This document shows positions 9,122-62,101 of a stretch of 64,000 bases of DNA, in pieces (position 1 is the stretch's first letter; each line of letters begins with the position of its first letter). A program made the position numbers and the translations under genes. The DNA comes from an uncultured Coriobacteriaceae bacterium (lineage in GTDB: Bacteria; Actinomycetota; Coriobacteriia; Coriobacteriales; Atopobiaceae): the NCBI GenBank assembly GCA_902793465.1, contig CADBDT010000010.1:1-64000 (forward strand), in the 5' to 3' direction. A model generated the notes under the pieces. It ran no database searches and was not told where the DNA came from. It saw only the letters and a program-made list of their open reading frames with translations.

Positions 9122-9344
9122 CTAGGGGGATACTCCCAACGCCATTTAGTTAAGGGTCTGGGGGAGCTGCGCACAAAGGGGATACTCCCCATCGGGTACA
9201 TCGCGAGCAGGGCTTTCGTTGGAGGCAGGCCCATCCGCGATGTACCCGCAGGGGAATATCCCCTTTGTGCGCAGCGCTAACTTAACGGCGGTGGGGATAC
9301 TCCCCTCAGTCTCAAAATTGGAGACTGAGAGTATCTCCCTAGTC
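9122..9344. repeat. Composite intergenic palindrome, copy 1 of the GGTACATCGCG family
   Basis: The core has 40-nt arms at 9166-9205 and 9236-9275 with three mismatches around a 30-nt loop (9206-9235). Outside it, CTAGGGGGATACTCCC with AACGCCATTTAGTTAAG (from 9122) faces CTTAACGGCGGTGGGGATACTCCCC (from 9280). A further small hairpin, CTCAGTCTC/GAGACTGAG, lies at 9305-9329. The far right end GAGAGTATCTCCCTAG pairs with the far left end. It fills the 309-bp gap between the stops of argR and the PBP gene. A separate hairpin at 9346-9371 (CACTGAG/CTCAGTG) follows just before the PBP stop. Confidence 0.88.
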
Positions 9345-45762: not shown

Positions 45763-48231
45763 ATGAAAAAGCGCGAGGATAAGGCCAAGAATCCATTGCG
45801 CGTAGTGGCTCTTTGCAGGGGCGAGGGGCTGGGATATGTTTTGGTGGCAGACGCAGTTGACCGTTCGCTTGAGGTTGTAGCAACGTGCGACAATGGCGCT
45901 ACGGTGCCATGCTCATGCTTTGCCGTACGTGATGGTTTTTTGCGCGGCGCTGCACCAGAAGCGGCACGGGTGTGGATTGTTGTTTTACCGCTGCTGTCCA
46001 TAGACTGCGCGCTGCGTTTTTTCAGCGACGGCAAGGAGCTTCTGACCACGGTCTTTTCTGTTGTTCGATCCAAGGTCTCCTCGCGCCTGCTTTCGTTGCG
46101 AAAGCCTGGTATTGCACAGGCGTTGCGAGGATACGAGCGGCGTTGCGGGGCAGGGCATACGAGTGTGCGCATCCGCGAGGTATGGCCTGGCGAGCCTGGC
46201 TGGGCGGTTTGGCGCATACGAGTCCAGACGCCCTACGCAGACGGTAAGACCGGCGCGGACCTACGAATATACGATGCCAGCGCGAACGAGTGCGTGTGCG
46301 ACGTTGTTGTTATGGAGGATCAGGTGGTCCCGAGCGAGCGGAGCAAAGGACAGCTCGTTCGCCTACTAACGTATTCCTGCACGCTTCCCGAGGGCATGCG
46401 TGCGTTTTATGCGACATGTTATGCGGCGGGCAGCGAGGTTTTGGGTCTCGATGGCATGAATGCCCCGCGCGCGGAAGCCATGCTTGCGGACACGCGCCGC
46501 CTTATTGGCGGGGCGCCTGTAAACGGCGATTACGAGGGATGGTTTAAGAGGAATTGCGTTACCGAAGCCGAGCTTGCGCAGCAGCGGGCTGCTGTGCAGG
46601 AAGTGAACGAGAGCGAGCTTCCGCTCTTTAGCTTGGTAATGCCGGTGTACAGGACGCCGCGCGCTTTTTTGCGTGAGGCGCTGGAATCTGTGGTTGCGCA
46701 GTCGTACCCAAAGTGGGAGCTGGTGGTTGTTAACGCCAGCGGTGCGTATCCCGAGGTGGATGAGACGCTGGGTGCGTTTGCAGATGAGCGTATTCGCGTT
46801 GTGCAGGTGGAAAACCGCAGCATATCCGAGAACACGAACGCGGGAATTGCCAAAGCCCGAGGCAACTACGTTGGTTTTTTGGACCACGACGACCTTCTTG
46901 AGCCGGATGCCCTCTGGTGTATGTGGCAAGAGATAAGCGCGCATCCTACGGTAGACGTGCTGTACAGCGACGAAGACCACCTGGACGGAATTCATGTTCA
47001 CGGACCAGCGTTCAAAACGTTTCCCAACTACGGCAAGCTCTATGAGCATAACTACGTTACGCATCTCCTTATGGTGAGTCGCTACGTGTTGGACAATACC
47101 GAGCGATCGGGGGCAGACGTGGCAGGGGCCCAAGACTACGACCTTACGCTCAAGGCGTTTGAGGTTGCTCGCAAGGTCGTGCATGTGCCGCGGGTGCTTT
47201 ACCACTGGCGAGAGCACGAGGGCTCAACCTCTGGCGGGGGAGACCAAAAGCCGTACGCTCATGTTGCGGGCCAGCGTGCGCTGGAGGCACATTTTGCGCG
47301 TAGAGGGATTGCGGCAAAGGTGGACGATGGGGCAATACCGTACACGTATCGTGTGCGATATGAGCTGCCAGAGCCCGCGCCAAAGGTGAGCGTAATTGTT
47401 CCCACGCGCGATCACGCGGACCTGCTAGAAGCATGTGTTACCAGCGTGCTCCAAAGATCCACCTACAAGAACATTGAGGTGGTGCTGGTGGAAAACAACA
47501 GCGAGCAGAGCCAAACGTTCGAGTGCTACAAGCGTCTTAAAGCCCAGGACAGTCGCGTTCGAGTTGTGGAGTGGCGGCCATCTGAGCCGGGAGACTTTAA
47601 CTATTCGGCCATCGTCAACTACGGTGTTGAGCAGTCCATAGGAGAATACCTGGTGCTCCTTAACAACGACACCGAGGTAATAGAGGAAAGCTGGATAGAG
47701 GAAATGATGGGATGCCTTATGCGTCCCGAGGTGGGTGTAGTTGGTGCCAAGCTCCTCTTTGCCGACGGCCTTATTCAGCATGTGGGCATGGCAGGCAACC
47801 CCGAAGGCTACTTTTGTCATGTGTGCCAAAACCTTACGCGCGACGCGCTTGGCCCAGGATATGCGGCCGCTATGCCGGGGGACTACTCCATGGTAACTGG
47901 TGCCTGTCAAATGATGCGTCGCTCGCTCTTTGAGGAGCTTGGCGGCTACGACGAAGAGTTGGCAGTGGGCTATAACGACGGTGACTTTTGCCTTCGTGCT
48001 CGCGAGGCGGGGTATGCGGTTACCGTATGCGCACATGCGCTCCTTCATCACCGCGAGTTCTCGTCGCGTGGGCGTGAGTCTACCGACGCGCGTCTTAAGG
48101 CCCGCCATCTTCGCGAACGTGCCCTTGTGCTGCAAAGGCATTCCGAGTTCTTTGCCGCCGGCGACCCCGCTCTCAATCCCAACCTGGATCCCTTTAGTGC
48201 CTACTTCGACATTCCTCGAGATCTCGGGTAG
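45763..48231 (+). CDS. Two-domain GT2 glycosyltransferase, second copy
   Basis: The 822-residue product starts at ATG 45763, four bases after the rfbC stop. An N-terminal module (1-285) precedes GT2 domain one (about 290-535: FSLVMPVYRTPRAFLREALE, SISENTNAGIAKARGNY, FLDHDDLLEPDALW, YSDEDHLDG) and GT2 domain two (about 540-790: SVIVPTRDHADLLEACV, LVENNSEQSQT, LLNNDTEVIEESW, GACQMMRRSLFEELGGYDEE). The layout and motifs match the gene at 22328, and the two are paralogues. Coupling to rfbC supports rhamnose as donor sugar. The last base of its stop codon is also the first base of a long palindrome. Confidence 0.88.
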   Translation: MKKREDKAKNPLRVVALCRGEGLGYVLVADAVDRSLEVVATCDNGATVPCSCFAVRDGFLRGAAPEAARVWIVVLPLLSIDCALRFFSDGKELLTTVFSVVRSKVSSRLLSLRKPGIAQALRGYERRCGAGHTSVRIREVWPGEPGWAVWRIRVQTPYADGKTGADLRIYDASANECVCDVVVMEDQVVPSERSKGQLVRLLTYSCTLPEGMRAFYATCYAAGSEVLGLDGMNAPRAEAMLADTRRLIGGAPVNGDYEGWFKRNCVTEAELAQQRAAVQEVNESELPLFSLVMPVYRTPRAFLREALESVVAQSYPKWELVVVNASGAYPEVDETLGAFADERIRVVQVENRSISENTNAGIAKARGNYVGFLDHDDLLEPDALWCMWQEISAHPTVDVLYSDEDHLDGIHVHGPAFKTFPNYGKLYEHNYVTHLLMVSRYVLDNTERSGADVAGAQDYDLTLKAFEVARKVVHVPRVLYHWREHEGSTSGGGDQKPYAHVAGQRALEAHFARRGIAAKVDDGAIPYTYRVRYELPEPAPKVSVIVPTRDHADLLEACVTSVLQRSTYKNIEVVLVENNSEQSQTFECYKRLKAQDSRVRVVEWRPSEPGDFNYSAIVNYGVEQSIGEYLVLLNNDTEVIEESWIEEMMGCLMRPEVGVVGAKLLFADGLIQHVGMAGNPEGYFCHVCQNLTRDALGPGYAAAMPGDYSMVTGACQMMRRSLFEELGGYDEELAVGYNDGDFCLRAREAGYAVTVCAHALLHHREFSSRGRESTDARLKARHLRERALVLQRHSEFFAAGDPALNPNLDPFSAYFDIPRDLG

Positions 48232-48335
48232 TGCCGCTTGGGGATACTCCCCATCGGGTACATCGCGGATAGACCACCTCGTAAGGGAGCGGCTTACTCG
48301 CGATGTACCCGTAGGGGAGTATCCCCAAGCGGCAC
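48231..48335. repeat. Intergenic palindrome, copy 2 of the GGTACATCGCG family
   Basis: The 37-nt arms 48231-48267 and 48299-48335 are reverse complements but for the central AT/TA pair in CCCCATCGGG versus CCCGTAGGGG. The loop is 31 nt (48268-48298). The element fills the space between two convergent stop codons (48231 and 48338) almost to the base. Confidence 0.93.
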
Positions 48336-48337
48336 CC

Positions 48338-49477
48338 CTAGCGATGCACTTTGCGATACAGCTCGTGAAGCTGCTCGCGCTTTTGTCCGTTCTTGCCGGC
48401 AACGCGGTTCGCGAGCGGAGTAAGTATCTTCTGGTACACGAGCTCCTTAAACATGAGGCTAATAGGTCGGTTTTCGTAGCGCTTGAGCTCGTCGTCTATG
48501 CTCTGAATCCATGCGCGTGTTTCCTCGAGCTGTGCGGAAACACGTTGTACGCCCTGCGAGGACATGCGACAGATTATGACCTCATAGAAAGGGGTCTGCT
48601 TGGCATAGCGCCAAAAATGCTCGGCAAAGTCGCACTCGGCGTCGTCCCATGGCTTTATGGGGCCCGCGTAGTGCACGATGCGCGGGTTCTCGCGCGCGGC
48701 CATATACTCGGCGCGAAGCTCGGGCGTGGTGCGCGAAATTATGTCGCGAATGCGAAAACCGCAGTTGTCAAACATTACGTTCCATGCCATGTCCACATGG
48801 AGCGTGCGACCTTGGCAGAAGTAGTTAAGAACGTCTTGGTCCAGCAGCTGCCACTCGTTGGATTGGGCGAACTTAAAAACCTCGTCCACGCTAATGGACT
48901 TGCGCCACTCGTCCAGGTTAAACAGGATGGTCCCTGCTTGGAAATACTCGTAGGGGTTCTTTATCTTTAGAACGTTGTCCATGTAGTTGCGCTTGTCGGG
49001 CTGGCCTAGATCGACGTCCACGCCGTTGTAGATGCCGGTGGTGTCTGGGTCTTTGCAGGCTGCAACAAGGTAGTTTTCTATGTTGGTGTCAAATAGCGGT
49101 GCCACGTCGCTCAGGCATACCATGTCGGCATCCAAATACAACACCTTATGGTGGTCGGGGAGAATTTGGGGAAGCAGCAGCCTAAAGTATGTCTCGCGTT
49201 TAAAGTGCGCCCAAACGCGCAGCTTGTCTTTATAGGGACGCATGGGCTCGCTAACGTCCAGTATGCGCAGGCTCACGTTGGGCCGCTCTACCAGCTGGCG
49301 CAGCTGCCTAATGTGCAGCTGGGTAAAGTCTTCGCAAAGTACAATGAACTCGTATGTACGCTGGGGGTTGCAGTGGTCCACAATTGACGCAAGCAGCGTG
49401 CCAAGGTAGGGCACGTAATAGTCGTTTGAGGCAAATACGACCGATACGGTTTTGCTGGACGGAGATTGCTCTGCCAT
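48338..49477 (-). CDS. GT8-family glycosyltransferase
   Basis: The 379-residue product starts at ATG 49477 with AGGAGC upstream. GT8 features are VSVVFASNDYYVPYLGTLLASI, KRETYFRLLLPQILP, the metal site VLYLDADMVCLSDVAPL near residue 117, YFQAGTILFNLDEWR, LLDQDVLNYF and VHYAGPIKPW. Members transfer glucose or galactose onto lipopolysaccharide cores or teichoic-type polymers in the cytoplasm. The last 70 residues are helical and basic. It diverges from the GlfT2-like gene, with a long palindrome between them. Confidence 0.9.
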   Translation of the reverse strand: MAEQSPSSKTVSVVFASNDYYVPYLGTLLASIVDHCNPQRTYEFIVLCEDFTQLHIRQLRQLVERPNVSLRILDVSEPMRPYKDKLRVWAHFKRETYFRLLLPQILPDHHKVLYLDADMVCLSDVAPLFDTNIENYLVAACKDPDTTGIYNGVDVDLGQPDKRNYMDNVLKIKNPYEYFQAGTILFNLDEWRKSISVDEVFKFAQSNEWQLLDQDVLNYFCQGRTLHVDMAWNVMFDNCGFRIRDIISRTTPELRAEYMAARENPRIVHYAGPIKPWDDAECDFAEHFWRYAKQTPFYEVIICRMSSQGVQRVSAQLEETRAWIQSIDDELKRYENRPISLMFKELVYQKILTPLANRVAGKNGQKREQLHELYRKVHR

Positions 49478-49570
49478 AAACGCTCCTAAAGAAAAAAAGA
49501 ATAACGCACATTCCAAAGCATTGTACAAGGAAAGTTGCTTTTTTGTGCAACGCAAAATGAAGAGCGGCAG

Positions 49571-49638
49571 AGCCTATCAAGGGGGAGTACCCCTCTTGAT
49601 TGGCACCAATCAAGAGGGGTACTCCCCCTTGATAGGCT
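49571..49638. repeat. Perfect 33-bp inverted repeat between divergent genes
   Basis: The arms 49571-49603 and 49606-49638 are exact reverse complements. Each arm is itself an imperfect hairpin (ATCAAG...CTTGAT around GGGGAGTACCCC). The element is in the 271-bp gap between two divergent start codons, so it cannot be a simple terminator. A related half copy stands at 61994-62016. Confidence 0.92.
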
Positions 49639-49748
49639 AAGGTATAGTTCTTAAAGCTATTTTGCGTAAGTTGGGTGCGGGACGTGCGGGTGATGCGCTA
49701 GCATACGAGTGTTATTACAAAAAAAGCCACTGCTCGGAGGTTTATATC

Positions 49749-51611
49749 ATGGCTATAGACTACCGCCTTTGTAATGTGTTGCTTACCGACGGCGCTAGGT
49801 TCGAGGAGCATCCAGAGCTCTATGTACGTCAGAGCCCTGTGATTCGAGCAGATGCAGATGGCAGTGCATCCTTGCTTCCCGAACGCATGAGATACGACTT
49901 TGCAACCTACCTTAATGCCTTCTCTAATATTAAATGGCGCAAGTACGCCACCGTTAGCAACGTATGGCTTAGACTTGTTGTTCGCGGTGCGTTTGAGGTG
50001 GTATACACGGGCTATGACCTCATGTTGCAAAAGCCCCAGCGCACCGTATTCGAGCGCAAGACGTACGAGCTCGATGAATACGAGACTTTGGATTTTTGCT
50101 ATCCCGCAGACAACACGACATTCTTGTCGTTTGAAATAATTACTGCAGGCGAGCTGTCGATTGCCCAGGCGTACTACTACACAAAAGTGGATGAGGCCGA
50201 TCTGCGTCCCGTAGAGCTCGCCGTTTGCACCACCACGTTTTGCAAAGAAGAGTACGTGGTGCCCAACATCGAGCTGTTTAGGGACCGCATACTGGGGTGC
50301 GACGAGCCCATTGCCAAGCACTTTACGCTGCATGTGGTGGACAACGGACGCACGCTTAGCGTCGAGGAACTGCAGTCGGACCGCATAAAGGTGCATCCCA
50401 ACCCCAACGTGGGTGGAGCCGGCGGCTTTTCGCGCGGGATGATAGAGGCGCTGGAGCAGGAGCCCAAGGCTACGCATGCCCTGCTTATGGACGATGACGT
50501 GCAAATTCACCCAGAGGCCATCAAGCGTACCTATAACCTTCTTACCCTTCTTCGCGACGAGTATTTGGGTCACTTTATAAGCGGTGCCATGCTTTGTCTC
50601 GAAGAGCCCAACATGTTCCACGAGGATGTGGGATACATGCACGAAGGCGGCGGATACTTTGCCACCAAGCTCCCAAACTTCGAGCAACGAACAATAGACG
50701 TTTCCAAGCTCGAGTCGTGCATGCTGCTTGAGACCTTTACGCCCAGGGTAAACAACAAGTACGCCGCATGGTGGTACTGCTGCATTCCCATAAGTACCAT
50801 TGAGAAGAACGGCCTTGCGCTGCCCCTGTTTATTCGTGGCGACGATGCCGAGTACGGCAACCGTGCCGCCAAGGGCTTTATTACCATGAACGGCATTTGC
50901 ATTTGGCATCTTTCAAACGCTGGCACGTTTCGCGCCGCGCTCGAGCGTTACTACCCTCTGCGCAACTCCCTTATTGCTCAGTCGGCGTCTGGAATATATG
51001 GCGACGTGAATCTTATTGACACGGTTCACCACTTCTTTGGAATTGACCTTAAGACGTTTAACTACGATGCGGCGGAGCTCTGCCTTAAGGGGTTTGAGGA
51101 CTACCTCCGAGGGCCTGAGCATCTTAAGTACATAAAGACCGAAAAGAACAATCGCGAGCTTGCCGCACTCAACGAAGAGCTCCTCCCCATAGAACAGATT
51201 GAGGAAGAGCTTGGGTACTATGTTCCGTTTAACCATCAGGCCCTGCCTACGAGCATACAGGACCGTAATATATTTACCAAGGCATACGACTACGCTACCT
51301 TTAACGGTCAGCGCGGTCCAAAGCAGTTGGCTCCTGGCGGCGTTGCCGTAATTGCGTACGATGGCTGGTTCTACCCGGCAAACACGATTCGCGGCAAGGA
51401 TACGCTGCTCGCCATTACGGCAGACGGAAAGATGGGCGTGCTTCGCAAAAAGGACCGCGTGCGGTTCGACCAGCTCGAAAAGCGCTATAAGGCGTTGAGA
51501 AAGATCTACAAGGAGCACAAGGACGAGATACGCGAGGCCTGGGCTGCTGCCCAGCCCGAACTCACCTCCATCGAGTTCTGGAAGCAGTATCTAAAGGAAC
51601 AGGCAGAATAG
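49749..51611 (+). CDS. GlfT2-like galactofuranosyltransferase
   Basis: The 620-residue product starts at ATG 49749 with GGAGG upstream. An N-terminal beta domain of the GlfT2 type (about 1-150) is followed by a GT2 domain: ELAVCTTTFCKEEYVVPNIE, LHVVDNGRTL, NVGGAGGFSRGM and the metal site ALLMDDDVQIHPEA near residue 247. FIRGDDAEYGNRA and CIWHLSNAG near residue 391 supply the usual Asp-Asp and His. Mycobacterial GlfT2 adds galactofuranose from UDP-Galf to arabinogalactan, so galactofuranose is a likely component here. No UDP-galactopyranose mutase gene is in the window; it must lie elsewhere if this is right. Confidence 0.85.
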   Translation: MAIDYRLCNVLLTDGARFEEHPELYVRQSPVIRADADGSASLLPERMRYDFATYLNAFSNIKWRKYATVSNVWLRLVVRGAFEVVYTGYDLMLQKPQRTVFERKTYELDEYETLDFCYPADNTTFLSFEIITAGELSIAQAYYYTKVDEADLRPVELAVCTTTFCKEEYVVPNIELFRDRILGCDEPIAKHFTLHVVDNGRTLSVEELQSDRIKVHPNPNVGGAGGFSRGMIEALEQEPKATHALLMDDDVQIHPEAIKRTYNLLTLLRDEYLGHFISGAMLCLEEPNMFHEDVGYMHEGGGYFATKLPNFEQRTIDVSKLESCMLLETFTPRVNNKYAAWWYCCIPISTIEKNGLALPLFIRGDDAEYGNRAAKGFITMNGICIWHLSNAGTFRAALERYYPLRNSLIAQSASGIYGDVNLIDTVHHFFGIDLKTFNYDAAELCLKGFEDYLRGPEHLKYIKTEKNNRELAALNEELLPIEQIEEELGYYVPFNHQALPTSIQDRNIFTKAYDYATFNGQRGPKQLAPGGVAVIAYDGWFYPANTIRGKDTLLAITADGKMGVLRKKDRVRFDQLEKRYKALRKIYKEHKDEIREAWAAAQPELTSIEFWKQYLKEQAE

Positions 51612-51624
51612 GCAGGGGTAACAC

Positions 51625-52443
51625 GTGTTCCTAAACGACTTGTATCATGCGCTAGACCCGGTGGCGTTTTCTATAGGTCCGTTTGCCGTTAGGTGGTACG
51701 GGCTTGGCTATTTGGCTGGCTTTGTGCTGGGCGGCATACTTTTGTATCGCATTGCAAAGCGCTGGAAGCTCGACCTGTCGTCCGACGACGTGCTCAGCAT
51801 CATGACAGGCATCTGTCTGGGCATTATTTTGGGAGGACGCCTTGGATACGTGCTGTTCTATGGCGCTGGCTATTATCTGAGCCACCCCTTGTCCATCTTT
51901 GCGCTCAACGAAGGCGGCATGAGCTTTCATGGCGGGTTGGTTGGCGCCATTGTGGGCGGCTCGATTGTGTGCAAAAGGAGCCGCATTTCCATTCCGACCA
52001 TTTGCGACATTGGGGTGTGCGTGGCGCCGGTGGGCATCTTTTTGGTGCGCTGTGCAAACTTTATTAACGGCGAGCTATGGGGCAAGGAAACAGACCTACC
52101 CTGGGGCGTAATGTTTGAGACGGGCGGCAACGTGTACCGGCATCCCTCGCAGCTCTACGAGGCGGTTTTGGAAGGTCTCGTAATGTTTGTGCTGCTGTGG
52201 ATCCTGTGGCGAAAGCTGCCCCCTCGTCCGCAGGGTACGTTTATGGGCATCTTTTTGCTGTGGTACGGCGTGTGTCGCATTCTTATTGAGTTCGTGCGCG
52301 TGCCCGACGAGCAGCTTGGCTATCTGTTTGGCGGATTCGTTACCATGGGGCAGCTGCTCTCGCTGCCGCTGATAATAGCTGGCATTGCCCTGCTCGTGTG
52401 GGCGCACAAGTACCAGCGCCCACAGGTGGGGCATGTAGAGTAA
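51625..52443 (+). CDS. lgt: Prolipoprotein diacylglyceryl transferase
   Basis: The membrane enzyme attaches diacylglycerol to the lipobox Cys of lipoproteins, such as the one at 2105. The 272-residue product starts at GTG 51625 and has seven membrane segments. Marks are AVRWYGLGYLAGFV, GGRLGYVLFYG, GMSFHGGLVGAI and the signature RCANFINGELWGKET, then YRHPSQLYEAVLEG and RILIEFVRVPDEQLGY. It lies 13 bases after the GlfT2-like gene, and it is separated from the convergent deoC by a palindrome. Confidence 0.96.
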   Translation: MFLNDLYHALDPVAFSIGPFAVRWYGLGYLAGFVLGGILLYRIAKRWKLDLSSDDVLSIMTGICLGIILGGRLGYVLFYGAGYYLSHPLSIFALNEGGMSFHGGLVGAIVGGSIVCKRSRISIPTICDIGVCVAPVGIFLVRCANFINGELWGKETDLPWGVMFETGGNVYRHPSQLYEAVLEGLVMFVLLWILWRKLPPRPQGTFMGIFLLWYGVCRILIEFVRVPDEQLGYLFGGFVTMGQLLSLPLIIAGIALLVWAHKYQRPQVGHVE

Positions 52444-52469
52444 GGTGAGTTAGGGCGGACCGTCCGAGG

Positions 52470-52580
52470 GGGGTGCCGCTTGGGGATACTCCCCCATCGG
52501 GTACATCGCGAGTAACCCATTTCATCATGAGAGGACTATCCGCGATGTACCCGTAGGGGAGTATCCCCAAGCGGCACCCC
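52470..52580. repeat. Intergenic palindrome, copy 3 of the GGTACATCGCG family
   Basis: The arms 52470-52510 and 52541-52580 enclose a 30-nt loop. The left arm has one additional C. The loop is in the orientation opposite to that in copy 2 although the arms point the same way. The element lies between the convergent lgt and deoC stops. GGACCGTCC just before it recurs upstream of the copy at 57.6 kb. Confidence 0.92.
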
Positions 52581-52598
52581 GCTCCGGGTTCCCGGACC

Positions 52599-53303
52599 CT
52601 ATCGCTTGGCAAGCTCCTCGAAGATGGCAATGCCGGCAGAGGTGCCAATGCGGTCCACGCCGGCGTCCACAAACGCAAGGAACTGCTCGGGAGTGCGAAT
52701 GCCGCCCGCGGCCTTAATCTTTACCTCGGGGTCGGTGTGTTCGCGCATAAGGCGCACGTCCTCCAGCGTGGCGCCTCCCGTGCCAAAGCCGGTGGAGGTC
52801 TTTATAAAGTCGGGCTTTACGTCGCTGGCAATGGTGCACAGTGCGATCTTCTCGTCGTCGGTAAGGTAGCAGTTTTCGAAGATTACCTTGCAGACGGTGG
52901 GATCGCTGGCGCCAAGGGTTCCGCCGCCGCGGCCCTCGCGGCAGAGGGCTACGATGCATTCCATTTCTTCGCGCACGTAGTCCCAGTTGCCGTTTTTTAC
53001 CTCGGTTAGGTTTACCACATAGTCGATCTCGTCTGCGCCGCACTCAATGGCGTCGTGAGTCTCTTGGATCTTGGAGTAGATGCTCGTTTGGCCCAAGGGG
53101 AACGAGATTGCTGCGTCCACGTGCACGTTGCTGTCTTTAAGGAGTTCGCAGCAGAGCCTGGACTGCACCTGGTTTATGGCAACGGAGGCAAAGCCCCAGG
53201 CCATGGCTTCGTTGCAGAGTACCTGTATGTCCAAATTGCTTGCGTCTGCATGCAGATTGGTGTGGTCCACGAGTTTTGCAAGTGCTTCTATGTCGTACGA
53301 CAC
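52599..53303 (-). CDS. deoC: Deoxyribose-phosphate aldolase
   Basis: The cytoplasmic enzyme splits deoxyribose 5-phosphate to acetaldehyde and glyceraldehyde 3-phosphate in nucleoside use. The 234-residue product starts at GTG 53303 behind a GGAGATGG purine run. It shows KLVDHTNLHADAS, AISFPLGQ, the substrate loop DEIDYVVNLTEVKNG, DFIKTSTGF with the Schiff-base Lys168 and VKIKAAGGIRT with the second Lys. No other deo gene is adjacent. It is followed on the minus strand by lgt in convergence, and its upstream neighbour is the M16C protease gene. Confidence 0.95.
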   Translation of the reverse strand: MSYDIEALAKLVDHTNLHADASNLDIQVLCNEAMAWGFASVAINQVQSRLCCELLKDSNVHVDAAISFPLGQTSIYSKIQETHDAIECGADEIDYVVNLTEVKNGNWDYVREEMECIVALCREGRGGGTLGASDPTVCKVIFENCYLTDDEKIALCTIASDVKPDFIKTSTGFGTGGATLEDVRLMREHTDPEVKIKAAGGIRTPEQFLAFVDAGVDRIGTSAGIAIFEELAKR

Positions 53304-53357
53304 GCTCTACCATCTCCTCAATACGTGGTTTGCCCGCTTATGGGCGGTTACGCCATC

Positions 53358-56258
53358 TTACCCTATGAGCTCCACTACTTGCTCGAACTCTACGGTGGAC
53401 GCCTCTATGGCCTCGCGCGGGCCAAACACCACTACGGTGTTGCCTTGCTTTATGTAAGAAAGAGGTTGCGCAAGCGCCTGAATGTCCTGGGCAGTGGCGG
53501 ATAGCTCGTCCTTTCGAACCTGCTCGCGCCAGCCTTCGGGCCTGCACGACAAGAGCATGCTGTCTTGTCTGCGCGCAAGCGCACGCGGCTTTTGGGGCGT
53601 GTCGTGGGTTGCCACGGTGGAAACCACGTAGCCTACCATTTCCTCCTTGGTGGGCGTCCACGATGCGAGCCAGTCGGCCGTGGCCTGGTAGCGTGCCAGT
53701 GTGGCATCGATGCCGGGGTCGCGATACGACCAGAATTGCACAAGTCCCTGCAGGGTGCGACGGAAGCCCGTTCCGTAGGCGCCGCCCTTTACGCGCACCT
53801 CGTTCCACAGGTAGTCGTATGAGAGCACGCGCTGAGCAACGCACCATGTGCCAAACGCCGCTTGGTCTTTTGGCGACGCACCCATGCCTTGGCCCACGTA
53901 GCTTACGCTGGAGGGAATTACAAAGGCCTCGTTGCGCCTTGTGAGCTCGGGTATAACAAGGGCGTGCTTGTTCGTGTTGGCGGCCTTTAGGCCCAGGCAG
54001 CCACCTTCGGCCCAAAAACGCTTGCGCTCCTCTGGTGCGCCAATAAAGCTCACGAGCACGTTGCTTGCGGTAAACACGCGGCTGCTTAGCTCGGCGAGCC
54101 GTGCAGAAAGGTCCTGCTTGCGCTGGTCCCAGCTGGCAAGAAGTTCTTTGAGGAACAGGTAGTAGTCAATGCCGCCCTGGGCTCCCGCCACCTTGGCGGT
54201 CTTGGAGTACTGGGTGGTAAGGCGCGACATAGCGGCGGCATGGCCCGCATTAACGAAGCGCTGCTCGAGCGCGATGCGGCGCTGCTGCAGGATGGCGTAT
54301 ATGCGGTCGGTGTCGTCAAAGAGCGTCTTTGCCCAGACCTCCTGGGGAAGGATGGCCAGCTGCTCGACGTTTTCTGCAAGTGCGCTGGCACCAACCACAA
54401 AGTAGGGCCGCACATCCTCTGGGTTGTTGTGCACTGAATGGGTTTCGGTAAAGAAGTCCAGGGTTCCCAAGTTGAGCTCCACAAGCGTGTCGAGTTCGGA
54501 AGCGCTGTGCTCGCTTGTGGCAAGCTTGCCCAAAAGGTCGCTTAGGACGCCGGTGTACGCTAGGTCTTCGTAGGTTAGGTGGCGCAGGTCAAAGTAGTGG
54601 TACACGTAGTCTATGTGGCGCGTGTCCAGCTCGTGGGCTATGCAGGGCAGCGGTGCCTCCACGGTAAGCGTGGCGGGTTCGGGCTTGTTTTCTCCAATGT
54701 CGGAAAGCTCCAGCCGGGGCAGCTTTGCCAGATCTTCCGGGGCATCCGGCGCCTCCTGCTCGACGCGCAAGGCTTCTACCTCGGCGTTAATGCGGGCAAT
54801 ATCGTTGTCGTTTAGTGTGGCGCGTTTTGCAAGGAGCTCCTCTTCCTCCCACGCGTTGGCTGCGTCGTCGGTTGGAACCAGCTCGACCTCGGCGCAGTGG
54901 GTGCTGTTGCACACCAGCTCTGCCAGCAGTCGCTCAAAGTAGCCGTTGTCCAAGCCCTCCTTCATGTGGCCCAGGGCCTCCTCGTAGCGCAGGTAGTCAA
55001 CGGGACGCTGGTCGTCGTAAAGCCAGCTGGACATAACCTGTATGGAAAGGGCAATACCGGTGGGATAAGAGCCAAAGTCCTGCTCGCGAAGGTTGAACTC
55101 TGCCTGAGCGAGGGAAGCGCGCAGCTGGTCGCGGCCAATGCCCTCCTTTGCAAGCCTGGCGCATTCTTTTTCTACAAGAGCGCGGAACTCCTGTGCCGCG
55201 CCCTCCTTTGCGCCTTTGAGCTGGAGCACTACGCGTGGCTGGATTTCGCCGTCTACGAGCATGGCGTTAAAGTCGTCCGCAAGCCCCGCGTCCAGTACCG
55301 CGCGCTTAAGGGGCGCCTCGTTGGATCCCGCCAGAGCGTCGAGAAGGACGTCGCAGGCAAGAACTCGCTCGCGGTCTGCAAAGGTGCCCACCACATACGC
55401 CAAGGCGACCGCCGCGTTCTCGGGCGCGGTGGACATGAGCACCTTGCTGGGCTCGGCGCGCAGCGGCTCCTGAAGCCCAAGCGAGTTGGGCGCGCCTGCA
55501 CGGCGAGGCTCCACGGAGCTCAGGCGCTCGTCTATAAACGCGAGCTCGCGGGCAATGTCCATGTTGCCATACAGGATTATGTAGCTGTTGGAAAGGTCGT
55601 AGTGGCGACGGTGGTTGTCCAAAAACTCCTCGTAGGTGAGGGTGGGAATGGCGCGCGGGTCGCCACCGGACTCAAAGCGATAGGCGGTGGAGGGAAAGAG
55701 CGCGCGGTCTATGCCCAAAAACAGCACGTCGTCTGGATCGGACGTGGCGCCCTTCATCTCGTTAAACACAACGCCGTTGTATACGAGCTTGTTGTCCTCG
55801 GTCGTCTCGTAGTGCCAGCCTTCCTGCTCAAAGATGCGCGGGCGGCTGTAGATGGCGGGGTGGAGCACCGCGTCCAGGTACACGTCCATAAGGTTTTCCA
55901 GGTCGGTCGTGTTGGTGGACGCCACGGGATACATGGTCTTGTCTGCAAAGGTCATAGCGTTAAGGAAGGTTTGCATGGACGTTTTGAGCAGGTTTACAAA
56001 CGGCTCCTTTACCGGAAAACGCTCGCTTCCGCAGAGCACCGAGTGCTCAAGGATGTGAAACACGCCCTTGTCGTTTGCGGGCGGCGTCTTAAACGAGATG
56101 GCAAACGACTTGTTTTCGTCGTCGCACGCAAGCCACAGCGCGCGTGCGCCGCTCTGCTTGTGGCGCATTACGTACGCCGTGCCCGAAAGCTCGTCCAGCG
56201 GAATGCTTTCCAAAACGTCGAAGCCGTGTACCAACGTGCCTATTTCGAGCGTGTCCAT
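53358..56258 (-). CDS. M16C metalloprotease (PreP/Cym1-like)
   Basis: The 966-residue product starts at ATG 56258 with AGGAGGAATT. Zinc proteases of this type have two halves that close over short peptides. The first half holds the inverted zinc site H68-I-L-E71-H72 in VFHILEHSVLCGSERFPVKEPF and the distal Glu region NLMDVYLDAVLHP. The M16C-associated middle domain follows (about 470-720), and the second half ends with GGAYGTGFRRTLQ, where Arg/Tyr substrate residues lie. No signal peptide is seen, so it should be cytoplasmic. In bacteria its substrates are little known; it presumably degrades peptides. The length suits the family. Confidence 0.92.
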   Translation of the reverse strand: MDTLEIGTLVHGFDVLESIPLDELSGTAYVMRHKQSGARALWLACDDENKSFAISFKTPPANDKGVFHILEHSVLCGSERFPVKEPFVNLLKTSMQTFLNAMTFADKTMYPVASTNTTDLENLMDVYLDAVLHPAIYSRPRIFEQEGWHYETTEDNKLVYNGVVFNEMKGATSDPDDVLFLGIDRALFPSTAYRFESGGDPRAIPTLTYEEFLDNHRRHYDLSNSYIILYGNMDIARELAFIDERLSSVEPRRAGAPNSLGLQEPLRAEPSKVLMSTAPENAAVALAYVVGTFADRERVLACDVLLDALAGSNEAPLKRAVLDAGLADDFNAMLVDGEIQPRVVLQLKGAKEGAAQEFRALVEKECARLAKEGIGRDQLRASLAQAEFNLREQDFGSYPTGIALSIQVMSSWLYDDQRPVDYLRYEEALGHMKEGLDNGYFERLLAELVCNSTHCAEVELVPTDDAANAWEEEELLAKRATLNDNDIARINAEVEALRVEQEAPDAPEDLAKLPRLELSDIGENKPEPATLTVEAPLPCIAHELDTRHIDYVYHYFDLRHLTYEDLAYTGVLSDLLGKLATSEHSASELDTLVELNLGTLDFFTETHSVHNNPEDVRPYFVVGASALAENVEQLAILPQEVWAKTLFDDTDRIYAILQQRRIALEQRFVNAGHAAAMSRLTTQYSKTAKVAGAQGGIDYYLFLKELLASWDQRKQDLSARLAELSSRVFTASNVLVSFIGAPEERKRFWAEGGCLGLKAANTNKHALVIPELTRRNEAFVIPSSVSYVGQGMGASPKDQAAFGTWCVAQRVLSYDYLWNEVRVKGGAYGTGFRRTLQGLVQFWSYRDPGIDATLARYQATADWLASWTPTKEEMVGYVVSTVATHDTPQKPRALARRQDSMLLSCRPEGWREQVRKDELSATAQDIQALAQPLSYIKQGNTVVVFGPREAIEASTVEFEQVVELIG

Positions 56259-56314
56259 GCAATTCCTCCTGCTTGGCTATTTGCTTGTATCTTGTATCTA
56301 TGGATATGTAGTGC

Positions 56315-57421
56315 CTATATTCCGTCCATCTCGTTGGCAACGCTGGAATACCACTCCTCGTAGTTGGGAGGACAATAGCGTTGGGCGCCGTCCAGCGTAA
56401 GGGTGCCGTCGTACCCCTTGGCAAGTCCCTCTACCTGGTCGTATATGGCGGACTCCCAGTCCGAATAGCTGCTGTTGCCCCAGCCCCAGGCGTTGTGGTC
56501 CTTAAAGCATACGCTGCCCTTGCCACTCTCGATGGTGGAGATTGCGGGCGAAAGGCGCGGGTCCACGCCGTAGGTGGCTGCCGCCTGGGCAAACGTTTCG
56601 CCGTACCCCTCAAGTGGCGAGCCGGCCAAATATGCGTTAATGCGTGCGGCCCAGTCGGAGGTCTCGCTGGAGGTAATGTTGCTTAGCAGGGGGTCGGTGC
56701 TCACGTCCGCGGATGCGGGAACCTGCAGCACGGCTTCGTTGCCCGAGCTAGTGGCAAAGGTAACTGGCGAGTCCGAGGTGGACTGGAGGGCCTCCTGTGC
56801 AACCTTTATGGCTTGGGCCCTGTTGCCTTGCTCGGATGCAGCAACCGCAATGGCGTGCGCCTGCAGCTCCGTCCGAGCGTTGCGGGCCTGCTTGAGCGCC
56901 TCCAGGGCTTCGTCCTTCTTTTGTACGGCCGCGTCGCGCTGGGATACGAGCAGCGCCTTGGTTTTGGCCAGATCGTCCACCATGTTGTTGAGCTCGATCA
57001 CTTCCCGGGTGTTGTGCTCGTGGACGGTGTCCAGGTAGTGCAGCGACGACAAAAACTCGTCGAAGCTTTCCGACGATAGGATAAGTTCGAGCAGGTTGCT
57101 TGAAGACTGCTGGAACTTGTACATGGTCTTTACGGATGCCGCCGCTCGTGCGCGTTGCTCGGGTAGCTGCTGTTCGAGCTCGCTTGCATGCTCTTCGTTT
57201 TGAGCAATCTGCTCCTCAAGCGTGTTTACGGCCTCTTCTGCCTCGCGATAGGTGGTAGTCGTCTCGGAAATCTTTGACACAAGAGCGTCCGCCTCCGACT
57301 CGAGCTGCTGGATGCTCGAGGGTGCTTCCTGGGCGCGGGTTGCTGGTGGTACGGGGGCGCCCAATAGGGCGAGTGTGCATGCGGCTGCCGTCGCCGCACA
57401 GATGAGCTTTTTGCGTTTCAT
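56315..57421 (-). CDS. Secreted coiled-coil protein with lysozyme-like C-terminal domain
   Basis: The 368-residue product starts at ATG 57421. A signal peptide (about 1-30, cleaved after TRA) is followed by a coiled coil (about 35-205) of the CwlO/PcsB type, which in those proteins is held by FtsEX. A linker leads to a C-terminal domain (about 255-368) with YGVDPRLSPAISTIESGKG (Glu near 296), then HNAWGWGNSSYSDWESAI and YCPPNYEEWYSSV. The E-S-G motif and the N-A-W-G-W segment resemble lytic transglycosylase or glucosaminidase folds. It is therefore a probable peptidoglycan hydrolase under division control. FtsEX is not in the window. A tandem paralogue lies upstream. Confidence 0.75.
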   Translation of the reverse strand: MKRKKLICAATAAACTLALLGAPVPPATRAQEAPSSIQQLESEADALVSKISETTTTYREAEEAVNTLEEQIAQNEEHASELEQQLPEQRARAAASVKTMYKFQQSSSNLLELILSSESFDEFLSSLHYLDTVHEHNTREVIELNNMVDDLAKTKALLVSQRDAAVQKKDEALEALKQARNARTELQAHAIAVAASEQGNRAQAIKVAQEALQSTSDSPVTFATSSGNEAVLQVPASADVSTDPLLSNITSSETSDWAARINAYLAGSPLEGYGETFAQAAATYGVDPRLSPAISTIESGKGSVCFKDHNAWGWGNSSYSDWESAIYDQVEGLAKGYDGTLTLDGAQRYCPPNYEEWYSSVANEMDGI

Positions 57422-57555
57422 GCTGCGTCTTTCTGGTTGAGCTCGTCATACGGTTGGCTCATATACTAGCAGCGTGTGGGTGTCAAACATGAAAAATCAC
57501 AAATAGGGAACAGACCTGGGCACAGCGGCGGACCGTCCCCATTGCCTGAGGAGTG

Positions 57556-57704
57556 GGGTGCCGCTTGGGGATACTCCCCATCGGGTACATCGCGAGCAGG
57601 GCTTTCGTTGGAGTCCGGCCCATCCGCGATGTACCCGTAGGGGAGTATCCCCAATGTGCACAGCGCAAACTTAATGGCGGTGGGAGCATCCCCAAGCGGC
57701 ACCC
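57556..57704. repeat. Hybrid intergenic palindrome, copy 4 of the GGTACATCGCG family
   Basis: The core arms (57556-57594 and from 57625) enclose a 30-nt loop that matches the loop of copy 1 but for four adjacent bases. The right arm is interrupted by about 41 extra bases (AATGTGCACAGCGC...GGGAGCATCCCC) before AAGCGGCACCC closes the outer stem at 57704. The extra part matches the outer arms of copy 1 and the fragment at 7126-7160, so this copy is a hybrid. The 310-bp gap 57422-57731 between two same-strand genes holds this element and no gene. Confidence 0.9.
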
Positions 57705-57731
57705 AGTAACTGGATCTGGCGCAGCTAGCCG

Positions 57732-58946
57732 CTAGATGGAGTTCATCTCGGCAAGAACGCTGGAGTACCACTCCTGGTAAGTGGGCGGGCAGTAACGCAT
57801 TGCACCCTCGAGGGTAAGCGTTCCGCCGTAGCCCGAGGCGAGGCCAGCCACGTGGTCGTTAATGGCCTCCTCCCAAGAGCCCCAACTCGAGCTGCCCCAG
57901 CCCCAGGCGTTGTGGGGACGGAAGCAGATGGCGCCCTTGCCACTCTCTATGCAGGAGATGGCAGGGGAGAAGCGCGGGTCTACGCCGTAGGTTGCGGCGG
58001 CCTTGGCAAAGGTGGCTCCATAGCCCGCAAGCGGCGACCCTGCCAGATAGGCGTCGATTCGAGCTGCCCAGTCTCCCGTTTCCTGGTCGGTCGTGTTGCT
58101 TGCAAGCGGCTCGGTGCTAACGCTGGTCATATCCTCCTGGGGCACCTCTACAACGGCGGTGTATCCCGAGGACGTGGTAAACGTTGCCTCATCCTTGGCC
58201 TCAGGCTCGCTTGGCGCGGGCTGCTCTTCTTCCTTGTTGGCCTGCTCCTGCTCCTGTTGCTGCTTCTTTTGGGCTTCCTCCTGCTCGCGCTTTTGGCGGG
58301 CCTCCTCAATTGCCTTCTGGGCGGCGGCAACGGCTTCTGCTCGCTGGCGTGCCTCGGCCGCGGCAATGGCGTCGGCACGCTGCTGCAGCTCGCGCTTTGC
58401 CGCGCGTGCCTGTTCCAAGGCGGCAAGCGCCTCGTCCTGCTTTTGCGCGGCTACCTCGTGCTGCGTTTCGAGCTCGCTCCTTGCTTGCGAAAGCTCGTTG
58501 TTAAGACGATTAAAGCGGTCGATCTCGTCGGTATTGCGCTGATGGATGGTATCTATGTAGCGCACGGTGGTAATAAACTCGTTAAAGCTCTCGGACGAAA
58601 GTATGAGCTCAAGCAGCCCCGGCGTGGACTGCTGGAACATGTAGAGCGTCTTAATGGACGCAGCGGCCTTTTGGCGCTGCTCGGGAAGCTGCTCTTCGAT
58701 CTCGGCGGTGCGGCCTTCGTTTTCTGCAATCATTTCCTCGATGGTGGAAACCTCAGCGGCAGCGTTCTGGTACGAAGTCGTAGCCTGCTCGATTTTTTCG
58801 GACATCTGATCGGACTGCTTGCGTAGGCTTTCGAGCTCCGACGCGTTATCTGCTCGTGCGGTAAGGGGGCAAAGTGCTCCACACAGCGCTAGCGTAAGCG
58901 CCCACACAACTGCCGCGCGCGTTTTGGGTGTCTTGTTAGGCAGCAA
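57732..58946 (-). CDS. Secreted coiled-coil protein with lysozyme-like C-terminal domain, paralogue
   Basis: The 404-residue product starts at TTG 58946 with GAGGAGAT upstream. It repeats the layout of its neighbour: signal peptide (cleaved after TARA), coiled coil (about 30-225), an additional Glu/Gln/Lys-rich segment (about 215-250), then the C-terminal domain with YGVDPRFSPAISCIESGKG (Glu near 334), HNAWGWGSSSWGSWEEAI and YCPPTYQEWYSSV. The C-terminal domains are nearly alike while the coils differ, as expected if each is held by different partners but cuts the same bond. The longer coil and charged linker distinguish it. Confidence 0.75.
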   Translation of the reverse strand: MLPNKTPKTRAAVVWALTLALCGALCPLTARADNASELESLRKQSDQMSEKIEQATTSYQNAAAEVSTIEEMIAENEGRTAEIEEQLPEQRQKAAASIKTLYMFQQSTPGLLELILSSESFNEFITTVRYIDTIHQRNTDEIDRFNRLNNELSQARSELETQHEVAAQKQDEALAALEQARAAKRELQQRADAIAAAEARQRAEAVAAAQKAIEEARQKREQEEAQKKQQQEQEQANKEEEQPAPSEPEAKDEATFTTSSGYTAVVEVPQEDMTSVSTEPLASNTTDQETGDWAARIDAYLAGSPLAGYGATFAKAAATYGVDPRFSPAISCIESGKGAICFRPHNAWGWGSSSWGSWEEAINDHVAGLASGYGGTLTLEGAMRYCPPTYQEWYSSVLAEMNSI

Positions 58947-58981
58947 GGCTCATCTCCTCGTTTAGGCAGCAATTACAAATA

Positions 58982-59015
58982 CATGGTCCATAATCTTAGA
59001 GCAAAATAGACCATG
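58982..59015. promoter_or_regulatory. Inverted repeat upstream of the secreted-protein gene
   Basis: CATGGTC (58982-58988) and GACCATG (59009-59015) face each other with 20 bases between, and TAAGAT, a -10-like box for the minus strand, lies inside. The site is 36-70 bases before TTG 58946 and could be an operator. No regulator can be named. Confidence 0.35.
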
Positions 59016-59081
59016 CCACGGGATATCCATGACTAACAAAACGAGCTTAAAAGGTTAAAAATGCCAATGAGCTGGGGTTTT

Positions 59082-59543
59082 CTACTTGACCACCAGTGTG
59101 TCGCATCCTGGAATGCGCGAAAGGAACGTGGACGTGGATCCCATAAGCGCATAGCGGAAGTTGGAAAGACCCAGTGCGCCACAAATAATGAGGTCGGGCT
59201 TTACGACGTCTATTATCTCGTTGCGCAGCGTCTCGCGAACGCGGCCGATCTTTACGATGAGCTCGACCTTGCGGATTTGCGGCTCCTGCTCGGCCTCGGA
59301 AATCTGAGGTGCAATGCCCTCGCGGAAGCTCTTTTCCAGCGTGCCCAAAAGCTCCAGCGGGTACGAACCGGCGGTCTCGAGCGATGTGGCGTCAACCACG
59401 TGCCCTATGTAGAGCTCCGCATTGTTGTTTGCGGCAATAATAATGGCACGCTGGATAACAAGCTCTTGCTGGGGGGTGCCATCTACGGCAACGAGTATGC
59501 GGTCGTAGCCCAAGGATTGATAATTAGGTGCGGGAACGTTCAT
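59082..59543 (-). CDS. Universal stress protein (UspA family)
   Basis: The 153-residue product starts at ATG 59543 behind GGAGGT; the open frame extends upstream without similarity. It is one Usp domain: YDRILVAVDGTPQQELVIQRAI, a middle with KVELIVKIGRVRETL, then the ATP-binding type segment ICGALGLSNFRYALMGSTSTFL followed by CDTLVVK. The usual loop is GxxGxxxxxxxxGS; here it reads GALGLSNFRYALMGS, which fits the ATP-binding type. Such proteins respond to starvation or oxidative stress. It is divergent from uppP with 100 bases between the starts. Confidence 0.92.
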   Translation of the reverse strand: MNVPAPNYQSLGYDRILVAVDGTPQQELVIQRAIIIAANNNAELYIGHVVDATSLETAGSYPLELLGTLEKSFREGIAPQISEAEQEPQIRKVELIVKIGRVRETLRNEIIDVVKPDLIICGALGLSNFRYALMGSTSTFLSRIPGCDTLVVK

Positions 59544-59643
59544 GCGTACCTCCTTAGATGCTCTGCGGTAGTATTGTAACCTCCAAGTGGATACTTCGTT
59601 GGGCAATACGCTCAGTGGCATGTGTGAAAGGTTGGGACGAGCG

Positions 59644-60549
59644 GTGGATCTTATAGAGTTGCTTAAGGCAGCCCTCTTTGGACTGGTTGAAGGAATTACG
59701 GAATGGCTGCCAATTTCGAGCACGGGACACATGCTGTTGCTCGATCAGTTTGTAAAGCTCAACGTGAGCAAGGACTTTTGGGACATGTTTTTGGTGGTCA
59801 TCCAGCTGGGGGCCATCCTTGCTGTGTGCGTGCTGTTTTTTAGGCAACTCAATCCGTTTTCTTTCAAAAAGACCAAGGAAGAGAAGCGTGGTACCTGGCG
59901 CCTGTGGGGGCAGGTGATTGTTGCCTGCTTACCGGCGGCGGTAATCGGCATACCCCTGGACGACTGGATGGAGGAGCATCTTGGGAGCCCCTTTGTGGTT
60001 GCGGGCGCCCTTATCGTCTACGGTATTGCCTTTATTGTTATAGAAAACCTGCGCGAGTCCAACGGCCGTCGCAGTGCCGGCGCGCACTTTTCTAACGCAG
60101 GCTCCAAGGGAGGCCTTGCCCTTACCTCCGACGAGAACGCGCGCGTGCAGTCGGTGCAGGAGCTCGGATGGGGTACCGCACTGGGCATTGGGGCGTTCCA
60201 GATTCTATCCATAGTGCCGGGTACCTCGCGCTCGGGTTCCACGATTATAGGTGGCCTGCTTTTGGGTTGCTCGCGCGCCGTTGCAGCGGAGTTTACGTTC
60301 TACCTCGCAATCCCGGTTATGGTGGGAGCCAGCGGCCTGCGCTTGGTAAAGTACTTCCTTAAGGGCAACACCTTTACCTCAAGCGAGTTTGCCATCTTGG
60401 GAGTTGGGTGCGTTGTGGCATTTGTCGTTTCTATTCTGGCCATTCGCTTTTTGATGAACTTCGTAAAGAAGCACGACTTCAAACCCTTTGGCTGGTACCG
60501 CATTGTGCTGGGCATTGCCGTAATTGCTTACTTCCTGCTGGCTCGATAG
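59644..60549 (+). CDS. uppP: Undecaprenyl-diphosphatase
   Basis: The membrane enzyme recycles undecaprenyl diphosphate to the monophosphate, the carrier for peptidoglycan and for the surface polysaccharide of this window. The 301-residue product has about eight membrane segments, the motif [17 protein letters not shown] near the start and [17 protein letters not shown] near residue 195. A hydrophilic insertion (about 130-165, with [16 protein letters not shown]) is longer than in E. coli. GTG 59644 is the likely start, as homology begins at once; ATG 59620 is possible. It is also a bacitracin-resistance determinant in general. Confidence 0.95.
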
Positions 60550-60554
60550 GCGGA

Positions 60555-60659
60555 GGTGCTGTTGGGGGATACTCCCCTACGGGTACATCGCGGAAAGTCC
60601 CCTCATATGAGACGGGTTTCCCGCGATGTACCCGATGGGGAGTATCCCCCAACAGCACC
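60555..60659. repeat. Intergenic palindrome, copy 5 of the GGTACATCGCG family, inverted
   Basis: The 38-nt arms 60555-60592 and 60622-60659 enclose a 29-nt loop. The outer arms read GGTGCTGTTGGGGG and CCCCCAACAGCACC: they differ from those of copies 2, 3, 4 and 6 at matching positions on both sides, so pairing is kept. The central marker is CCCCTACGGG on the left, which shows this copy lies in the reverse direction. It stands five bases after the uppP stop and before glycerate kinase, both on the plus strand. Confidence 0.93.
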
Positions 60660-60714
60660 CCCGCTTGTGCTACCAGTTTGTTGTATGTCGTCCCAAAGAG
60701 AGAGGGCCGTTACG

Positions 60715-61854
60715 ATGCGCTTTTTGTTTGCATCCGACTCGTTTAAGGGCACCATATCGTCCGCTCGTGCGGCAGAGTTGCTGGACGCTGCGGCGCGGGA
60801 GGTTTTTCCCCATGCTGTGACGTGCGGCGTTGAGGTGGCCGACGGAGGCGAGGGAACGGTGGCTGCCGTCGTTGCTTCTGCGGGCGGGACGCTGCGTACG
60901 GTAAACGTGCAGGGTCCACGCGGTGGCGAGGTTGCGGCGTCGTATGGCGTGTTGGGGGATGGTCGTGCCATTGTGGAGATGGCTGCCGCGTCGGGGCTGC
61001 CGCTCCTTGCGGCAGACGAGCGAGATCCGCGCTATACCAGCACGTTTGGCACGGGCCAGCTTATCTTGGATGCGCTGGACGAGGGCGTGCGGGACATCTC
61101 ACTTGCCATTGGCGGCTCGGCTACCAACGACGGCGGCATGGGCTGCATGCGTGCCTTGGGTGCGCGCTTCCTCGATGCGGACGGGGCGGAGCTTGAGGGC
61201 GTGGGCGGCGACCTGGCCCGGGCGTCGCGGATCGATCTTGCGGGAATGGACCCGCGTGTTGGCAAGACCTGCTTTCACGTAATGTGCGATGTTAACAATC
61301 CCTTGCTGGGAGAGCGGGGGGCGACCTATGTGTTTGGCCCCCAGAAGGGTGCCACGCCATCGATTGCCGACGAGCTTGAGCGTGGCATGCAAAGCTACGC
61401 CCGCGTGCTCGAGGCAACTTTTCCGGGCATCGATGTTGCGGCGCCTGGTATGGGGGCAGCTGGCGGCCTTGGTGTCGCAGCCAGCGCGTTCTTGCGGGCA
61501 GAGCTGCTGCCGGGCATCGAGCAGGTGCTCAACCTCGTGGGCTTTAACGAGCTGCTTGAGGGGTGCGACCTGTGTGTGACCGGGGAGGGCCACGCCGATG
61601 CCCAATCCGCACATGGCAAGGTGGTCAGTGGCGTTGCGGCTCGGTGCCGCGCGGCGGGAGTTCCCTGCGTGGCCCTGGTCGGAGGCATGGACGCGGATGC
61701 CATGGAGCTTACGGGCTGTGGTGTGAGTGCGCTTGTTCCCACGGTAATCGACGTCGGAACGCTTGACGAGGTGCTTGCGCATGCCGAGTGCAACTACACG
61801 CTTGCCGCAGAGCGACTTTTTGCGTTGCTGCGGTTGGGAATGGGCCTTATCTGA
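60715..61854 (+). CDS. Glycerate kinase (GlxK/GarK type)
   Basis: The cytoplasmic enzyme phosphorylates D-glycerate, usually to 2-phosphoglycerate. The 379-residue product starts at ATG 60715. It shows the family opening FASDSFKGTISSARAAELL, GVEVADGGEGT, VEMAAASGL, the catalytic-type GGSATNDGGMGCMRALGA, DVNNPLLGERGATYVFGPQKG, GMGAAGGLGVA and CVTGEGHADAQSAHGK. Length matches PF02595 members. The open frame reaches back into the palindrome at 60555 but the ATG used is the first with similarity. The gene is flanked by two copies of the palindrome family. Confidence 0.93.
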   Translation: MRFLFASDSFKGTISSARAAELLDAAAREVFPHAVTCGVEVADGGEGTVAAVVASAGGTLRTVNVQGPRGGEVAASYGVLGDGRAIVEMAAASGLPLLAADERDPRYTSTFGTGQLILDALDEGVRDISLAIGGSATNDGGMGCMRALGARFLDADGAELEGVGGDLARASRIDLAGMDPRVGKTCFHVMCDVNNPLLGERGATYVFGPQKGATPSIADELERGMQSYARVLEATFPGIDVAAPGMGAAGGLGVAASAFLRAELLPGIEQVLNLVGFNELLEGCDLCVTGEGHADAQSAHGKVVSGVAARCRAAGVPCVALVGGMDADAMELTGCGVSALVPTVIDVGTLDEVLAHAECNYTLAAERLFALLRLGMGLI

Positions 61855-61875
61855 GTGGCGCTGCGTCCGAAAACG

Positions 61876-61986
61876 GGGGTGCCGCTTGGGGATACTCCCC
61901 ATCGGGTACATCGCAAGAGGCCCGTTTCCCTACGAGAAGGCTTATCCGCGATGTACCCGTAGGGGAGCATCCCCAAGCGGCACCCC
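61876..61986. repeat. Intergenic palindrome, copy 6 of the GGTACATCGCG family
   Basis: The arms 61876-61914 and 61948-61986 enclose a loop of about 33 nt. The right arm has GGGGAGCATCCCC where others have GGGGAGTATCCCC. The loop is in the same orientation as in copy 3 and opposite to copies 1, 2 and 4. It lies between glycerate kinase and pcrA, both on the plus strand. Confidence 0.92.
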
Positions 61987-61993
61987 ACACCAA

Positions 61994-62016
61994 TCAAGAG
62001 GGAGTACCCCCCTTGA
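61994..62016. repeat. Short imperfect hairpin related to the 49.6-kb palindrome
   Basis: TCAAGAGGG and CCCCCTTGA face each other with AGTACC between. The preceding CCAA plus this segment matches the right half of the palindrome at 49606-49633 with few changes. It adjoins copy 6, so two repeat types are joined here. Confidence 0.7.
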
Positions 62017-62101
62017 GAGGTGCCATTGTTGCTAATATTTGTCCACTCTTCGCGTTACAATTTGTCACCAAAACCAACTGTCGCGCATCTTGGAGGAAAG
62101 C

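Follow-up and report, generated by a model that had tools for sequence, protein, structure and literature searches.

REPINs/BIMEs are built from two inverted small-hairpin units round a less conserved spacer, so arranged that the whole can form one large hairpin; they are extragenic and number well over 100 copies (Bertels and Rainey 2011; PMC3116915). In E. coli, REPs have conserved stem mismatches, which are required by TnpA-REP (PMC8266576). TIRYT/TIRtron elements have a RAYT-like gene between palindromic terminal repeats that lack GTAG and are also found dispersed (Di Nocera 2013, PMC3733652). Inverted spacers between inverted repeats have been described before, in chloroplasts and, on the scale of a few bases, in yeast genes. 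Chloroplast loops of 25–27 bp, flanked by an inverted repeat of at least 18 bp, occur in both directions within species (PMC2903610), and in yeast genes arm homogenisation together with spacer inversion is the signature of template switching between inverted repeats (PMC8604942). For REPINs, no report of loop inversion was found in the open-licence literature, and the passages of PMC3116915 consulted mention none. Here we describe a palindrome whose loop stands in both directions relative to its arms. The genome searched (G000) comprises 3.1 Mb in 68 contigs, and the window, the whole stretch of DNA analysed, corresponds to positions 1–64000 of contig 10 (64,000 nucleotides).

A REPIN-like palindrome and the RAYT-like gene

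The palindrome is REPIN-like and probably mobile: two small hairpin units stand as an inverted doublet on either side of a loop. It is about 110 bp long and consists of two arms of about 40 nt, a loop of 29–31 nt and one 2x2 mismatch. Towards the loop each arm reads ...TGCCGCTTGGGGATACTCCCC-NN-CGGGTACATCGCG; at NN, one arm has AT and its partner TA. This AT/TA mark, already singled out in the preliminary description, becomes in the hairpin an A.A/T.T internal mismatch in an otherwise paired stem, and is separated from the loop by a perfect inner arm of 13 bp (CGGGTACATCGCG). Folded as single strands, three window copies gave energies of -49.4 to -52.6 kcal/mol (z about -13). A strict pattern found at least 167 copies in the genome and its reversed-pattern control none. 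The six window copies (Table 1) lie between likely genes, as judged by eye from a mechanical list of open reading frames covering the window only.

Like the REPINs of PMC3116915, the element has two conserved units in inverted order around a more variable spacer, can form one hairpin and is present in high copy number (167 strict copies in 3.1 Mb); even the unit spacing is close, at 74 bp as compared with 71 bp in GI of SBW25. Unlike them, it has GTAG or GCAG on one arm only, as found in 133 of the 142 copies with an asymmetric mark, the opposite arm having GATG. A further difference from the REPINs of that account concerns the RAYT gene. The only RAYT-like gene of the genome, located outside the window, encodes a 248-aa protein with a Y1/HUH domain (PF01797, 35.5 bits in the genome search and 33.9 with the protein, against a cut-off of 23) and the motif SNHVHL; NCBIfam model NF047646 gave 53.7 bits (E 2e-14), which is below its cut-off of 80. 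On both sides of this gene stand 66-bp palindromes (ACCTCTCAAGGGGGAGTACCCCTCTTGATTGGTACC...) of another family, family 2, which amounts to 80 units in 1.23 Mb and has the small hairpin GGGGAGTAYCCCC, and nothing else, in common with the present element (family 1). We term the element REPIN-like, although it lacks one defining property of REPINs: the RAYT gene is not flanked by copies of the element itself.

Family 2 itself has the organisation of TIRYT/TIRtron elements, with the transposase gene between inverted, GTAG-less palindromic TIRs that are also dispersed. Unlike in the elements described in PMC3733652, however, a second and more numerous palindrome family without a transposase gene of its own is present here. 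Counting the present genome, RAYT-like homologues occur in 14 of 16 genomes from the genus, with 31–67% identity in most of the genus. At seven of the nine relatives' loci inspected, palindromes lie close on both sides of the gene, and in several relatives these fit the TIRYT motif GGGGWSAS (PMC3733652). A scan of the RAYT protein against the genome-contig collection gave no confirmed match.

No Rfam family was found in the window, and the viral contigs scanned gave nothing; the 28-nt arm pattern was without match in the genome-contig collection, and a search of the PDB by sequence gave no match. In same-genus genomes we found one strict copy, in G002, and one weak half-copy, in G012, so that the genus offers no orthologous copies for strain comparison.

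Table 1. Palindromes of the window and the RAYT-like gene. Loop score, forward minus reverse with the AT arm set left.
Feature	Positions	Strand	Loop	Marks	Loop score	Remarks
Palindrome copy, family-A loop forward	9166–9275	+	9206–9235	AT 9191–9192; TG-type (GCAG) 9249–9250	+25	Inside longer nested element
Palindrome copy, family-C loop reversed relative to mark	48228–48338	+	48268–48298	AT 48253–48254; TA 48312–48313	-19	The window's only reversed copy
Family-2 palindrome	49571–49638	.				Arms AGCCTATCAAGGGGGAGTACCCCTCTTGATTGG, spacer 2 nt; type flanking the RAYT-like gene
Palindrome copy, loop forward	52470–52580	+	52511–52540		+15	Between two convergent ORFs
Palindrome copy, family-A loop forward	57555–57664	+	57595–57624		+30	Chimaeric
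Palindrome copy, mark on opposite strand	60553–60661	-	60593–60621	TA 60578–60579; AT 60635–60636	+17	Loop forward once arms are set alike
Palindrome copy, family-C loop forward	61876–61986	+	61916–61946		+14
Single family-2 unit	61990–62025	.				Adjoins copy 61876–61986
RAYT-like gene	C10:72715–73455 (L002:1111–1857)	-				Outside window; PF01797; the only one in the genome

Some sites are of interest in themselves. At the gap 52443–52599, the pair of convergent genes is found in four relatives (L075–L078) too, but there it encloses unrelated, species-specific palindromes, which would fit a favoured site or a hairpin with the role of a terminator; each species thus seems to own its families. 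The minus-strand ORFs 56315–57421 and 57732–58946 have diverged direct repeats in common, 1417 bp apart and 70–75% identical over 144–230 bp, which suggests an old tandem duplication with one palindrome copy between. Elsewhere in the genome, the palindrome has probably been duplicated locally in tandem, as two copies (L018:7746–7799 and 7847–7900) have one and the same loop sequence and are 101 bp apart.

Direction of the loop and likeness of the arms

Loop direction was analysed in 158 copies from 1.23 Mb of the genome. Exactly one arm carries AT in 142 of them, the opposite arm having TA in 103 and TG in 30. With the AT arm set left, the loop is forward (AG...TATC) in 107 copies and reverse in 35, a ratio that departs from 50:50 with a binomial probability of 1e-9. 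Both directions are present in three of the four loop families (forward:reverse 34:7 in A, 21:20 in B and 39:8 in C, as against 13:0 in D). For the 135 copies whose loop measures 30 or 31 nt, a four-class model that uses no reference families agreed on the direction throughout, at posteriors above 0.99 in 130; in view of these posteriors and of the near-identity of the loops, chance similarity is rejected. From the 107:35 ratio and the agreement of the reference-free model it follows that loop direction is neither random nor fixed.

The palindromes, the AT/TA mark and the two loop directions reported in the preliminary description are hence all confirmed, and the check that it proposed, orienting the genomic copies by the AT arm, indeed yields near-identical loops both ways. 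Its count of three copies each way in the window was wrong: by loop scores five are forward and one is reverse (48256–48310). Likeness had been misassigned: CTCGTAAGGGAG is a reversed family-C loop, whereas TTTCGTTGGAG, with which it was paired, is a forward family-A loop. That the loop has been inverted relative to the arms is supported by the genome-wide count (35 of 142) but not on the six window copies alone (5:1, not 3:3). The interval given for it, 48268–61947, has five of the copies in or beside it; the first copy lies outside.

The loops stand both ways relative not only to the mark but also to the outer flanks. About 30 family-A copies are embedded in a longer element, the flanks of which are conserved and asymmetric (GGGTCTGGGGGAGCTGTGCACATT next to the AT arm, AATGTGCACAGCGCTAACTTAATGGCGG on the opposite side), and 27 forward family-A copies match these flanks cleanly and in the same sense. 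In three family-A copies (L033:5322, L036:13699 and L062:1323) the mark and outer flanks are kept and the loop alone is inverted. The reversed loop at L033 is letter-identical to the forward loop at L060:13924, and three further reversed A loops are one step from a forward loop. Moreover, a T at position -9, outside the mark, remains on the TA-side arm in reversed copies (7 versus 1), which argues that the loop turned and not the mark. In two copies (L009:7354 and L021:17448) mark and loop are jointly inverted relative to the far flanks; the breakpoints are therefore not at one site, and some fall in the outer arms. As to the nested element, one at window positions 9120–9320 holds a family-A palindrome within the flanks CCGCCATTTAGTTAAGGGTCTGGGGG / GCGCTAACTTAATGGCGG, and about 26 further copies are located elsewhere; the nested element is bounded by another pair of small hairpins, of family 1 or family 2 type, and looks like a palindrome within a palindrome.

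Parsimony on the loop tree counts 26 direction changes, only 2 of them forced by well-supported branches, and the 31 columns are too few for the poorly resolved tree to give an exact number of inversion events. The occurrence of both directions in families A, B and C suggests about three events or more, if the families are sound. These would be historical events, which we infer from paralogous copies.

The two arms of a copy resemble each other closely. In 122 of 154 copies the two arms agree in full over an 11-nt outer-arm word (9.2 expected), and at seven outer-arm positions matching is about 0.8–0.9 within a copy versus 0.3–0.5 between copies. The inner arms are nearly invariant, mostly 97–100% alike within a copy. 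Six copies have the same rare mark (CT, TT, CG or CC) on both arms, a number reached in none of 20,000 shuffles (mean 0.13). Against this homogenising background the mark matches between arms in only 8–9% of copies; the mismatch, kept in about nine-tenths of them, appears to be actively maintained. By analogy with the stem bulge of E. coli REPs, it is probably held by selection for recognition by a transposase.

Template switching as the probable mechanism, and its alternatives

We consider replication template switching at an extruded hairpin to be the best explanation of loop inversion, with a probability of roughly two in three. The element would spread, probably, by means of a RAYT/IS200-type single-strand transposase, and the inserted palindrome would fold as a hairpin in the single-stranded DNA at replication forks, where the nascent strand may leave one arm and go on copying from the other. 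Such a change of template inside one arm would render the arms alike; if the nascent strand passed to the opposite strand and returned within the 13-bp stretch that separates mark from loop (CGGGTACATCGCG), the loop would be turned and the mark and outer flanks left in place. What favours template switching is that arm homogenisation and spacer inversion, with the arms unchanged, are found in the same repeats, as this is its joint published signature.

The preliminary description had named recombination between the arms as the agent; the inversion itself holds, but its agent need not be recombination, and we place template switching before it. Several observations do speak for homologous recombination or gene conversion, be it inside a single copy or among dispersed copies that pair in inverted register, but the explanation is an unlikely one. 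On each side of the loop the arms are near-identical over up to about 40 bp, at least 167 near-identical arms exist in the genome, and the traces of gene conversion between copies aligned in this way could look the same as those observed. One loop family is found in several outer-arm contexts, and chimaeric copies join two outer-arm types, such as the window copy at 57555–57664, whose left outer arm is standard (GCCGCTT) and whose right side is of the nested type (ATGTGCACAGCGC...). On the other hand, 35 of 142 copies would require a tract that stops in the 13 bp separating mark from loop, a length that is short for RecA pairing. Agreement of outer-arm words is also much commoner inside a copy than among different copies, so that the dominant exchange occurs within copies. 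Alternatively, a RAYT-type Y1 transposase might move the loop and inner arms as a single-stranded cassette between the outer arms; the symmetry of the inner arms would allow either strand to be re-inserted, hence both directions. The genome does possess one RAYT-like gene, the palindromes flanking it have the same small hairpin, and TnpA-REP of E. coli cleaves single-stranded REP strand-specifically and needs a stem bulge (PMC8266576), a feature that is kept here. Yet it is family 2 and not the inverting element that flanks this gene, TnpA-REP works at REP hairpins and not at the inner CGGGTACATCGCG, and inversions have other breakpoints too (mark plus loop relative to the far flanks), all of which leaves the cassette rather improbable. 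Nor do we give much credence, if slightly more, to the idea that loop inversion belongs to the life cycle of the element, whereby a RAYT-type transposase, or the hairpin made by it, would swap the loop together with the inner arms as a strand-neutral cassette and the conserved 2x2 mismatch would choose the strand processed.

It is very improbable that the loop never turned, be it that the mark switched sides by mutation or conversion, that the similarity of loops is due to chance, or that the assembly is in error. Symmetric marks, found in 12 of the 158 copies, do show that marks can be overwritten. However, a flipped mark in place of a flipped loop is rejected on account of the -9 base, which stays with the mark, and of the three copies whose loop alone is reversed, their mark and outer flanks being concordant; the loops, besides, are near-identical, not vaguely alike. 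Simple assembly error is rejected, as the mark lies only 13 bp from the loop and k-mers of about 20 or more fix the phase. Least credible of all is a site-specific invertase that acts on the inner 12-bp inverted repeats, in the manner of a phase-variation switch. These inner arms, placed on either side of the segment that inverts, do vary very little, but only 54 bp separate the outer edges of the sites, which is very short for synapsis of duplex DNA; more than 160 dispersed sites would also recombine among themselves, and neither the 13:0 ratio of family D nor the outer-arm inversions fit such a scheme. Nothing in these data supports reading loop inversion as a regulated switch.

Comparison with spacer inversion in other genomes

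The inversion of the loop is real and best explained, in our opinion, by a known mechanism, on an unusual scale and on an element apparently undescribed so far. With at least 167 copies in one genome, each with a built-in polarity mark, the rate, breakpoints and direction of inversion become countable. The contrast between arm positions that homogenise and a mismatch that does not gives a hint as to the bases that a transposase may need. Dispersed palindromes in general call for an alignment of their loops in both directions before any history is deduced from them. Chloroplast minute inversions (trnH-psbA; PMC2903610) resemble the present case in having loops of similar size that occur repeatedly in both directions; they concern, however, one locus across plants, as opposed to many copies in one bacterial genome, and here a fixed mismatch gives the phase of the loop. 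Yeast template switching (PMC8604942) has arm homogenisation and spacer inversion in common with our element, but its spacers are a few bases long and situated in genes, whereas those described here measure about 30 bases and belong to a dispersed repeat.
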